This document shows positions 58,306 to 62,214 of a DNA stretch of 64,000 bases, piece by piece; the first letter of the stretch is position 1; the number at the start of each line of letters is the position of its first letter. The notes under the pieces are model-generated. The model had not been told where the DNA came from. It worked only from the letters and a program-made list of their open reading frames with translations, and made no database searches. The stretch is from Clavibacter phaseoli. GTDB taxonomy: Bacteria; Actinomycetota; Actinomycetes; Actinomycetales; Microbacteriaceae. The translations under genes were made by a program, and so were the position numbers. The DNA is taken from positions 186,001 through 250,000 of the forward strand of contig NZ_CP040786.1 in assembly GCF_021922925.1 (NCBI RefSeq), read 5' to 3'.

Positions 58306-58353
58306 GCACTACATGTAGGGTCCGATGTCTTGCGACACCCCCGCATCTAGTTC
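58306..58353 (+). promoter_or_regulatory. Tandem NrdR-box-like sites
   Basis: GCACTACATGTAGGGT (58306-58321, core palindrome CTACATGTAG) and CCCCCGCATCTAGTTC (58338-58353) have centres 32 bases apart, the spacing usual for paired NrdR boxes of class I and II RNR operons. The second box is weak. NrdR would repress when dATP is high. Confidence 0.6.
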
Positions 58354-58553: not shown

Positions 58554-61055
58554 GTGTCCATCACCGTAGTGAAGCGCGACGGCACGCGGGAGCCGTACGA
58601 CGCGAACCGCATCAACCTGGCCATCGAGGACGCCACGCAGGGCCTCGACGAGAACATCGGCTGGGTCACGCAGATCGCCTCCGAGCTGGAGATCACCCTC
58701 TTCGACGGGATCACCACGCAGCAGCTGGATGAGGCCGTCATCCAGGTCGCGCTCCAGAACGTGAAGGACGACCCGGCGTTCGACACCGTCGCCGCGCGCC
58801 TCCTCCTCAAGACCATCTACAAGCGCGTCCTCGGCGACTACTCGTCGCCCGAGGAGCTCAAGCGCCTCCACGCGGAGCACTTCGCCCGCAACATCCAGCG
58901 CGGCGTCGACGAGATGCTCCTCGACTCCCGCCTCGTGCAGCTGTTCGACCTGGAGCGCCTCGCCCAGGCCCTCGAGCCGGCGCACGACGAGCTGCTCAAG
59001 TACATCGGCGTCGTCACGCTGAACAACCGCTACGGCATCAAGGGCCGCAACGGCGACGCCCTCGAGGTTCCGCAGTACTTCTGGATGCGCATCGCGATGG
59101 GCCTCACGCTCAACGAGCAGGACCCGACCGAGACCGCCATCGCCTTCTACGAGAAGATGTCGAAGCTCGAGTACCTCGCGGCCGGCTCCACCCTCGTCAA
59201 CGCGGGCACCATCTACCCGCAGCTCGCGAACTGCTTCGTCATGGAGATGCAGGACGACATCGAGCACATCGCGAAGACCACGCGCGACGTCATGTGGCTC
59301 ACCAAGGGCACGGGCGGCATCGGCCTCTCCGTCTCCAAGCTGCGCGCGCAGGGCTCGCCCATCCGCTCGAACAACACCACCTCCACGGGCCCGATCCCGT
59401 TCATGCACACCATCGACTCCGTCCTCCGCGCCGTCAGCCGCGGCGGCAAGAAGTTCGGCGCCCTGTGCTTCTACATGGAGAACTGGCACCTCGACTTCCC
59501 CGAATTCCTCGACCTCCGCCAGAACTCGGGCGACCCGTACCGCCGCACCCGCACCGCCAACACGGCCGTGTGGATCAGCGACGAGTTCATGAAGCGCGTC
59601 CAGAACGACGAGGACTGGTTCCTCTTCGACCCGCTGGAGGTCTCCGACCTCAACGAGCTGTACGGCAAGGCGTTCTCGGAGCGCTACGCGTTCTACGTCG
59701 GCGAGGCCGAGGCCGGGCGCCTGCGCATGTTCAAGCGCATCAAGGCGCGGGAGCAGTTCAAGTCGATCCTCATCTCGCTCCAGACCACCAGCCACCCGTG
59801 GTTGACCTGGAAGGACACGATCAACAACCGCGCCCTGAACAACAACACGGGCACGATCCACCTCTCGAACCTCTGCACCGAGATCACGCTGCCGCAGGAC
59901 GAGGACAACGTCTCCGTCTGCAACCTGGCGTCCATCAACCTGTCGCAGCACTTCTCCGACGGGAAGATCGACTTCGCGAAGATCGAGCAGAGCGCGCGCC
60001 TCGCGGTGCGCCAGCTCGACAACCTCATCGACATCACGCGCTCCAGCGTGAAGGAGGCGGACTTCTCCAACCAGCAGAACCGCGCGGTGGGCCTCGGCGT
60101 CATGGGCTTCACGGACGTCGTCGAGAAGCTCGGCTTCTCGTACGAGTCCGAGGAGTCGTACGACCTGATCGACGAGATCATGGAGCACGTCTCCTACGCG
60201 GCCATCGACGAGTCGGCCGACCTGGCGAAGGAGCGCGGCGCGTACCCGAACTTCGAGGGATCGCGCTGGTCGGAGGGCCTCGTGCCGCTCGACTCGATCG
60301 CGCTCATGGAGGCCGACCGCGGCGTGCCCGTCAAGGTCAACCGCACCACGCGCCTCGACTGGGACGCGCTGCGCGCCAAGGTCAAGGGAGGCATGCGGAA
60401 CGCGACGCTCATGGCGATCGCGCCCACCGCGTCCATCGGCCTCGTCGCCGGCACCACGCCCGGCCTCGACCCGCAGTTCTCGCAGATCTTCAGCCGCTCC
60501 ACCTCCTCGGGCAAGTTCCTCGAGGTCAACCGGAACCTGGTGAAGGACCTGCAGGAGCTCGGCCTCTGGGAGACGGTGCGCGAGAGCATCCTCCGCAGCC
60601 AGGGCGACATCCAGAACATCGCCGCCATCCCGGACTCGGTCAAGGCCACGTACCGCACGAGCTTCCAGCTCTCGCCGTACGCGTTCCTCGAGGTCGCGGC
60701 GCGCGCGCAGAAGTGGATCGACCAGGCCATCAGCCGCAACATGTACCTCGAGACGCGCGACCTCGGCGACATGATGGACATCTACTTCGCCGGCTGGGAG
60801 CGCGGGGTCAAGACCACGTACTACCTGCACATGAAGCCGCGTCACACGGCCGAGCAGTCGACCGTCAAGGTCGACAAGTCGCAGGACGCCGACGGCACCA
60901 AGCGCAAGGGCTTCGGCGGATTCGGCGGCGGCGCTCCCGCGGCCGTCCCCGCGTCGGCCCCCGCGTCCACCGCGACCGCGGAGGCCCCGGCCCCGCAGTC
61001 CGCTCCGGCGCCCCGCAAGGGCTTCGGCTTCGGCGGAGTGGGAGGTGCACGCTGA
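58554..61055 (+). CDS. nrdA: Ribonucleoside-diphosphate reductase alpha subunit (class Ic type)
   Basis: An 833-residue catalytic subunit converting ribonucleoside diphosphates to deoxy forms. An N-terminal ATP-cone (about 1-95, ITVVKRDGTREPYDANRINLAIEDA) senses dATP/ATP. Active-site Cys227 (NCF), Asn439, Cys441, Glu443 (NLCTE), Cys456 (VCNLASINL) and the radical-transfer pair Tyr756-Tyr757 are present. After about residue 785 comes a flexible Gly/Ala/Pro linker ending GFGGVGGAR. The expected terminal redox CxxC is missing from this reading frame and is found in the next, tiny ORF. GTG start with a GGGAGCAG site. Confidence 0.95.
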   Translation: MSITVVKRDGTREPYDANRINLAIEDATQGLDENIGWVTQIASELEITLFDGITTQQLDEAVIQVALQNVKDDPAFDTVAARLLLKTIYKRVLGDYSSPEELKRLHAEHFARNIQRGVDEMLLDSRLVQLFDLERLAQALEPAHDELLKYIGVVTLNNRYGIKGRNGDALEVPQYFWMRIAMGLTLNEQDPTETAIAFYEKMSKLEYLAAGSTLVNAGTIYPQLANCFVMEMQDDIEHIAKTTRDVMWLTKGTGGIGLSVSKLRAQGSPIRSNNTTSTGPIPFMHTIDSVLRAVSRGGKKFGALCFYMENWHLDFPEFLDLRQNSGDPYRRTRTANTAVWISDEFMKRVQNDEDWFLFDPLEVSDLNELYGKAFSERYAFYVGEAEAGRLRMFKRIKAREQFKSILISLQTTSHPWLTWKDTINNRALNNNTGTIHLSNLCTEITLPQDEDNVSVCNLASINLSQHFSDGKIDFAKIEQSARLAVRQLDNLIDITRSSVKEADFSNQQNRAVGLGVMGFTDVVEKLGFSYESEESYDLIDEIMEHVSYAAIDESADLAKERGAYPNFEGSRWSEGLVPLDSIALMEADRGVPVKVNRTTRLDWDALRAKVKGGMRNATLMAIAPTASIGLVAGTTPGLDPQFSQIFSRSTSSGKFLEVNRNLVKDLQELGLWETVRESILRSQGDIQNIAAIPDSVKATYRTSFQLSPYAFLEVAARAQKWIDQAISRNMYLETRDLGDMMDIYFAGWERGVKTTYYLHMKPRHTAEQSTVKVDKSQDADGTKRKGFGGFGGGAPAAVPASAPASTATAEAPAPQSAPAPRKGFGFGGVGGAR

Positions 61056-61132
61056 TGAACGACGACACGTTCGGCGACTACGTCGTCCCCATGGACCCCA
61101 TGGACGAGCTCCAGTGCGACTCCTGCCAGTAG
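61055..61132 (+). CDS. 25-residue CxxC peptide: detached C-terminal tail of the RNR alpha subunit
   Basis: MNDDTFGDYVVPMDPMDELQ then CDSCQ. RNR alpha subunits normally end in a mobile tail with a Cys pair that re-reduces the active-site cysteines. Here that ending is encoded in the -1 frame, its ATG inside the TGATG overlap with the nrdA stop, and a GGGAGG site (61040-61045) sits nine bases upstream. It could be a separately translated peptide acting in trans, or the product of a programmed -1 shift that fuses it to nrdA. A simple sequence error is the other possibility. Confidence 0.65.
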   Translation: MNDDTFGDYVVPMDPMDELQCDSCQ

Positions 61133-61218: not shown

Positions 61219-62214
61219 ATGTCGAAGATCCTCGGCACGGGAATCCAGGAGGGCCTCCTCCTCAAGCCCGTCAACTACCAGTGGGCCATGGACCTGTACG
61301 ACCAGGCCGTCGCCAACACGTGGTTCCCCAACGAGATCCAGCTCGGCGAGGACATCGCGGACTTCAAGAAGATGACGGACGAGGAGCGCCACGCGATCAC
61401 GTTCCTCATGAGCTACTTCAACCCGAACGAGCTCCTCGTGAACAAGGCGCTGGCGTTCGGCGTCTACCCCTACATCAACGCGCCGGAGTGCCACCTCTAC
61501 CTGGCGAAGCAGATGTGGGAGGAGGCGAACCACTGCATGTCGTTCGAGTACGTCCTGGAGACGTTCCCGATCGACCGCGAGGCCGCGTACAACTCCCACG
61601 TCGACATCCCGTCGATGGCGCGCAAGGAGGAGTTCGAGGTCAAGTTCATCAAGCGCATGACCGAGCAGACCCTCGACATCACCACCACCGAGGGCAAGAA
61701 GGACTTCGTCCGGAACCTCGTCGCGTACAACGTGATCCTCGAGGGCATCTGGTTCTACTCGGGCTTCATGGTGTCGCTGTCGTTCCGCCAGCGGAACCTG
61801 CTGCGCAACTTCGGCTCGCTCATGGACTGGATCGTGCGCGACGAGTCGCTGCACCTGAAGTTCGGGATCAACCTCATCCTCACGGTGCTCGAGGAGAACC
61901 CCGACCTGCAGACGGAGGAGTTCGCCGCCGAGATCAAGCAGATGATCCTCGACGCCGTCGAGATGGAGGAGCAGTACAACCGCGACCTCCTGCCCAACGG
62001 GATCCTCGGGCTCAACGCGAACTACATCAACCAGTACGTGAAGTACCTCGCCGACCGCCGCCTCGAGGAGCTCGGCTTCGAGGCCGAGTACAAGGTCTCG
62101 AACCCGGCGAAGTGGATGGCGACGGCGAACGACACGCTGCAGCTCGTCAACTTCTTCGAGTCGACCAACACGTCGTACGAGTCGAACGCGTCGGCCACCG
62201 TCGGCGCCAAGTAG
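61219..62214 (+). CDS. nrdB: Ribonucleoside-diphosphate reductase beta subunit, class Ic (Phe instead of radical Tyr)
   Basis: A 331-residue metal-radical subunit. Metal ligands are Glu71, Glu102, His105, Glu175, Glu209 and His212, with exactly the spacing of Chlamydia trachomatis R2 (E89, E120, H123, E193, E227, H230). Phe109 stands where class Ia has the radical Tyr, as Phe127 in Chlamydia, and Glu71 replaces the usual Asp. This predicts a Mn(IV)/Fe(III) cofactor instead of a tyrosyl radical. GGAGAGAAG precedes the ATG. It follows nrdA and the tail ORF in one operon. Confidence 0.95.
   Translation: MSKILGTGIQEGLLLKPVNYQWAMDLYDQAVANTWFPNEIQLGEDIADFKKMTDEERHAITFLMSYFNPNELLVNKALAFGVYPYINAPECHLYLAKQMWEEANHCMSFEYVLETFPIDREAAYNSHVDIPSMARKEEFEVKFIKRMTEQTLDITTTEGKKDFVRNLVAYNVILEGIWFYSGFMVSLSFRQRNLLRNFGSLMDWIVRDESLHLKFGINLILTVLEENPDLQTEEFAAEIKQMILDAVEMEEQYNRDLLPNGILGLNANYINQYVKYLADRRLEELGFEAEYKVSNPAKWMATANDTLQLVNFFESTNTSYESNASATVGAK

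Follow-up and report, generated by a model that had tools for sequence, protein, structure and literature searches.

How is the class I ribonucleotide reductase (RNR) of Clavibacter phaseoli re-reduced if its alpha subunit, NrdA, has no C-terminal cysteine pair? This question is raised by the nrdA locus in the window analysed here, a stretch of 64,000 nucleotides (contig NZ_CP040786.1, positions 186,001 to 250,000; unprefixed feature coordinates below are window positions on the plus strand unless noted). Electron delivery to the RNR active site by a tethered tail has been called near-universal for class I (PMC9669993), and class I tails are described as reducing the active-site pair by disulfide exchange (PMC9669993; PMC4520616). 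In the window, nrdA (58554..61055) is followed by a 25-residue open reading frame (ORF), MNDDTFGDYVVPMDPMDELQCDSCQ (61055..61132; translation, comparison, and codon-level selection), and by nrdB, encoding the RNR beta subunit (61219..62214; translation and profile match). It is very probable that, in those Microbacteriaceae that have this class I RNR, the redox tail of the alpha subunit is a separate, trans-acting redox peptide. The sequence evidence for this proposal consists of the split itself, selection on the peptide, the co-occurrence of NrdA and tail, unlinked and mobile copies of the tail gene, and shared promoter boxes.

Translation, profile matching, and alignment of NrdA revealed the domains (ATP cone, all-alpha, and barrel) and the active-site cysteines of a class I alpha subunit. 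The 822-position NCBIfam model PRK06539, which does not include the tail, was covered end to end (1731.8 bits), and the partner beta gene nrdB lies in the nrdA operon. NrdA contains only four cysteines, at residues 227, 305, 441, and 456. By alignment with 5im3, the closest solved relative, three of them coincide with conserved cysteine sites: Cys227 (codon 59232..59234) aligned with the active-site cysteine region, Cys441 (59874..59876, in NLCTEI) with the thiyl-radical position, and Cys456 (59919..59921, in VCNLAS) with the second cysteine of the active-site pair. We take the roles of these residues to be the same as in other class I RNRs. The first-pass annotation, made from the window sequence, had described the nrdA frame as ending in a linker without terminal cysteines, and no cysteine was found past residue 456; the low-complexity C-terminal linker (60885..61052) contains RKGFG(F/G)G motifs and ends ...GFGFGGVGGAR, and NrdA has no C-terminal double-cysteine motif of its own. 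A PF02867 search of the genome gave one match, so that a second alpha subunit elsewhere was rejected. Because NrdA has four cysteines only and the PF02867 match is single, the sole alpha subunit found combines an intact active site with the lack of its own tail.

Reading of positions 61053 to 61132 bore out the unusual junction described in the first-pass annotation. The stop and start codons overlap in TGATG (61053..61057), where the ATG of the tail ORF uses the A of the nrdA TGA, in frame −1, and the codons of the CDSC cysteine pair lie at 61115..61126, in a peptide ending CDSCQ. For comparison with relatives, 80 named loci were taken from the genome collection, 79 of which were readable through the nrdA stop (L058 was cut off). 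nrdA was present in all 18 genomes of the genus Clavibacter; the other 17 share this linked tail and its frame, and the same junction letters were seen in the Clavibacter loci compared. A separate ORF ending VPxDPMDxLxC(D/E)SCQ, or a near variant, was found between nrdA and nrdB in 76 of the 79 readable loci, which gives the redox cysteines a conserved ORF of their own. No cysteine occurred in the C-terminal stretch of NrdA in any of the 79, and in none of the Microbacteriaceae loci read are tail and nrdA joined. Relative to nrdA, 68 linked tails lie in frame −1, 6 in frame 0, and 2 in frame +1. Their starts, which were picked by a script rule and may be wrong in some cases, concentrate where stop and start codons overlap (offset −1 in 37 and −4 in 24), and the overlap fits the termination-reinitiation that had been put forward as one of three options. 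The last 15 tail codons occur in 62 distinct DNA versions (22 different as protein), over which the ratio of nonsynonymous to synonymous polymorphism (pN/pS) was 0.061 in frame compared with 2.9 and 9.5 in the two alternative frames. This comparison indicates that the tail peptide is under selection. A split tail was also seen in a metagenome-assembled genome (MAG) labelled Cellulomonadaceae (L084), whose NrdA groups with the Pontimonas type; the label may be wrong.

The ancestry of this arrangement was examined in a sample of the order, in which 42 of 248 genomes, C. phaseoli among them, had an NrdA match at 1e-120 or better. The 3' end of nrdA was read in 30 of the 41 other matching genomes, all of sister lineages, and a CxxC tail was fused in frame to NrdA in all 30. 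Eighteen closer fused NrdAs (L100-L117) end C-P-x-D-P-(M/Q)...C(E/D)(S/A)CQ, and 12 distant ones (L118 and L120-L130) have another tail type, CEAC(Q/E). The fused tail of sister families in the same order thus shares its terminal motif with the free one (CPVDPMEALQCESCQ versus VPVDPMDDLQCESCQ), and RKGFG(F/G)G-like motifs also stand ahead of the tail in several fused sister NrdAs; the fused tail differs in being covalently attached, and the close fused relatives have an extra cysteine before the proline that is absent from the linked free tails. A tree built from 122 rows and 168 columns required one fused/split change (support 77/98), which was present in 78% of 200 bootstrap trees, a bootstrap that had not settled. 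Because the tail is fused in all of the sister-lineage genomes read, the split appears to be derived. With the distant fused group taken as outgroup and one change on the tree, the simplest reading, although not proof, is a single fission in the Microbacteriaceae lineage.

A 33-base pattern for DPM(D/E)xLxCxxC was scanned in 299 Microbacteriaceae genomes and was found in 125, the reversed-pattern control being zero in the rows listed. According to lists of NrdA and of the tail pattern transcribed by hand, the pattern occurred in all 123 genomes with this NrdA versus 2 of the 176 without it. The two exceptions (G171 and G279, 94% and 93% complete) had no RNR match whatever, and a missing contig is the likely cause. 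Outside the order, no sign of the split was found: a slightly stricter pattern, which is also blind to fused variants such as CEACQ, was found in none of the 395 other genomes of a phylum sample and none of the 344 of a class sample. Since C. phaseoli was the sole match in both samples (396 and 345 genomes), chance matches are rare. When applied to 22 fused sister genomes, the stricter pattern matched 17, once each with none extra, and missed 5 with variant motifs.

At least two tail matches were present in 116 of the 123 NrdA-type genomes, and one in the other 7. The second tail gene of C. phaseoli (G000:C1:2966837-2966923) encodes the 28-residue peptide MDYDNNDTVGGYAIPVDPMELLQCDSCQ and is unlinked to nrdA. 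Twenty stretches around second matches in Microbacteriaceae contained 22 motif ORFs, ranging from 25 to 212 codons stop to stop, and neither nrdA nor nrdB. The linked tail was absent, even across the whole 8.4-8.5 kb around nrdA, from Naasia lichenicola (L052), a Cryobacterium MAG (L073), and a Homoserinimonas MAG (L074, same coordinates as G142); these three, G030, and G065 have an unlinked tail only, with exactly one stand-alone motif match each. A linked tail only was found in G110 and G163, two of the seven one-copy genomes. Because genomes with either kind only exist, either kind of tail gene seems to be enough by itself. G030 (L119 and L168) is a reduced genome of 0.93 Mb, in which a tail-less NrdA accompanies a single unlinked tail gene with promoter boxes. 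The number of motif matches per genome reaches six in G053, where a Fic-domain gene lies beside one copy, and seven in G305. Neighbours of extra bacterial copies gave a PHROG match in 5 of 10 cases (two being phage-structural or lysis genes) and a Pfam match in 3 of 10.

A pattern scan with an NrdR box consensus revealed two NrdR-type boxes upstream of nrdA, GCACTACATGTAGGGT (58306..58321) and CCCCCGCATCTAGTTC (58338..58353), 32 bp apart start to start. The two boxes are palindromic and lie about three helix turns from each other, the spacing at which NrdR tetramers are described as binding (PMC9110341). With at most one mismatch, the pattern CACTASATGTAGKGK occurred in the C. phaseoli genome at two places only, before nrdA and before the unlinked 28-residue tail gene, with no other gene between the boxes and the start of the latter; the box 1 scan gave three matches, one of them the opposite strand of the same place, and the reversed control pattern gave one. 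NrdR itself (TIGR00244) is encoded at C1:841505-841936. A pair of ACACTANATNTAGTGT-type boxes with starts 31-33 bp apart and at most 10 mismatches was found upstream of nrdA in 78 of the 79 loci versus 2 of 395 shuffles. All 16 main unlinked tail genes, each from a different genome, are preceded by the same pair, and for none of them did any of 100 shuffles reach as few mismatches; none of 11 additional copies has the pair (best 13 mismatches, 8 of 100 shuffles as low). This result describes two gene kinds and is not a blind test because the two sets were made after the first box scan. The boxes suggest that NrdR would bind at both nrdA and the unlinked tail gene.

Tail genes are also carried by phages and plasmids; this carriage, the fused tail of sister families, and the boxed unlinked gene all go beyond the first-pass annotation. 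An exact-pattern scan of predicted viral contigs gave at least 120 stretches, of which 80 loci were examined. All 80 have a motif ORF ending no more than three residues from the CxxCQ of the second cysteine; 44 of these ORFs are at most 40 codons long stop to stop and 2 exceed 150, and NrdA similarity was found in one locus and nrdB in two. One viral contig (L244) carries an nrdA (L244:9955-13314) without a tail, ending ...APRKGFGFKSAN, with nrdB downstream and a free tail, MAPQNKDNVDGYYVPQDPMDLLQCDSCQ, ahead. Its NrdA is interrupted by an intein-like stretch (PF14890, 33.1 bits, under the cut-off of 35.8), and this insert splits LC from TEI in the thiyl-radical cysteine motif. In another predicted viral contig, a 316-residue ORF (L239:1890-2837), intein-like by eye and without a Pfam match, is flanked by a free tail ORF and nrdB. 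Pontimonas phage phiPsal1 and Clavibacter phage CMP1 each have an unannotated tail ORF adjoining the holin gene. Pseudanabaena phage Pan2 encodes MDDFDTIDGFACPNDPADLVSCESCQ (L292:5001-5075), overlapping the annotated ORF 27 in another frame, which points to a wider host range of these tails or to doubt about the host label. No common neighbour gene of the viral tails was found among the 10 scanned (PHROG match in 9, of varied function; Pfam match in 2). The tail matched 19 plasmid records, 15 from Clavibacter, 3 from Leifsonia, and 1 from Gryllotalpicola. A protein database search with a 53-residue plasmid form gave 4 close Clavibacter-type matches, the named ones being 'hypothetical protein'. 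On a plasmid of Leifsonia sp. ZF2019, a 33-residue tail (WP_223361114.1; L294:3977-4078) is annotated as 'ribonucleotide-diphosphate reductase subunit beta', a name apparently carried over wrongly.

We infer that the tail is translated as a free peptide of about 21-35 residues, ending VPxDPMDxLQC(D/E)SCQ, which serves a tail-less NrdA retaining its active-site cysteines. The peptide would dock on NrdA through its conserved Y/F-x-VP-x-DPMD segment, perhaps by the RKGFG-rich end of NrdA, and its CxxC pair would reduce the active-site disulfide in trans after every turnover; the oxidised peptide would be re-reduced by thioredoxin or a similar donor. The ORF translationally coupled to nrdA would supply peptide alongside NrdA, and in most genomes a second, NrdR-controlled tail gene would add peptide at low levels of deoxynucleoside triphosphates (dNTPs). 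Phage and plasmid copies would add further peptide, plausibly raising dNTP supply to the benefit of the phage. We hold with moderate confidence the wider proposal that a class I RNR has released its redox tail as a diffusible third subunit. This subunit, smaller than any other known catalytic partner of an RNR, would be made from NrdR-controlled genes, be spread by phages and plasmids as a peptide-sized auxiliary gene, and tune dNTP production in infected hosts.

Several points weigh against these proposals. Small reductants are described as able to reduce the RNR active site directly, the tail being not strictly needed in vitro (PMC4520616). The Shine-Dalgarno-like GGGAGG reported in the first-pass annotation is present nine bases before the tail ATG (61040..61045), but such a site is not general: it precedes 20 of the 76 linked tails versus 906 of 8040 (11%) of all ATGs in the same loci. 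The main and additional unlinked copies were sorted only after the first scan had revealed the boxes, and the retention of two or more tail copies is not accounted for. Furthermore, the predominance of frame −1 among the linked tails leaves room for some fused product, formed by slipping or stop-hopping.

The last point underlies the explanation that a programmed −1 frameshift, a stop-hop, or readthrough at the nrdA stop yields a share of fused alpha subunit, with the unlinked copies serving otherwise. The 68 tails in frame −1 with stop-start overlaps accord with it, as does the tail frame in 21 of the 76 loci, where it stays open over 300 nt or more upstream. However, 6 linked tails follow the stop in frame 0 and another 2 are in frame +1, the reading frame of the tail closes either no more than 30 nt from the nrdA stop or beyond it in 22 of 76, and no classical slippery heptamer was seen when the window junction was inspected by eye. 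Frameshifting cannot explain L052, L073, L074, G030, and G065, because the tail there is unlinked only. A programmed −1 frameshift gene, with conserved, joinable frames in all members, was therefore rejected, and this mechanism, which had been among the options first listed, is disfavoured as a general one and very unlikely as an explanation. Quite unlikely is a role for the free peptides as regulators, competitors, or buffers of RNR or thioredoxin and not as the catalytic reductant. The several copies per genome, many of them on phages and plasmids, and the presumed loss in a free peptide of the high local concentration that tethering gives to a tail would suit such a role, but NrdA lacks any other cysteine at its C terminus, no NrdA-type genome is without a peptide gene, and the peptide retains the CxxC and flanking motif of the fused tails.

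Joining of the peptide to NrdA after translation, by a ligase or by trans-splicing, would restore the ancestral fused form; it is extremely unlikely, since inspection of the relatives' translated loci turned up no conserved splice or sorting signal on either side and each peptide has its own start codon at its head. A sequencing error or a recent pseudogene could be entertained while one junction only was at hand, prior to comparison, but conservation of the tail across genera, with the pN/pS value given above and the same junction in all 17 Clavibacter relatives, led to its rejection, and its probability is practically negligible. Among the three options originally raised, a trans-acting redox peptide is strongly favoured.

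The nearest precedent for a trans-acting redox peptide is the split class II RNR NrdJa/NrdJb of Pseudomonas aeruginosa, in which, as described, the re-reducing cysteines are on a separate polypeptide needed in vivo and the split is likewise derived from a single-chain ancestor (PMC4520616). The working mode of the free tail may resemble that of NrdJb. However, NrdJa/NrdJb is class II and B12-dependent, and NrdJb is reported to have predicted folded domains (PMC9669993), whereas the Microbacteriaceae piece is a 21-35-residue peptide that belongs to a class I enzyme and has unlinked NrdR-boxed as well as phage and plasmid copies. Membership of the NrdJb family was rejected for the 25-28-residue peptides, in which no folded domain was found and whose partner is class I. 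In phages, nrdA can be interrupted by introns, inteins, or homing endonucleases, which also gives an alpha subunit encoded in more than one piece, but the splits described are insertions inside the gene (PMC3653736); here the redox tail alone is detached and also occurs solo. NrdH/glutaredoxin-type reductants, including a glutaredoxin fused to NrdB, are likewise small thiol carriers for RNR, but they are described as folded thioredoxin-like proteins that reduce the tail and are not the tail itself (PMC6187632).

In a partial literature search, by which absence in print is not established, no published description of a detached class I tail and nothing on the Microbacteriaceae NrdA ribonucleotide reductase were found. 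In yeast, an Rnr1 chain reportedly serves the neighbouring chain with its CX2C tail. The free tail would account for the apparently missing redox tail in Microbacteriaceae NrdA sequences. If the proposal is true, a whole bacterial family depends on a free peptide, which would offer a separable, titratable test of tail electron delivery; an essential enzyme has survived the loss of a catalytic part; and a class of genes for 21-35 residues, largely unannotated, is revealed in bacteria, plasmids, and phages. Elsewhere in the window, an msiK cis-regulatory RNA was found at 612-670 on the minus strand.
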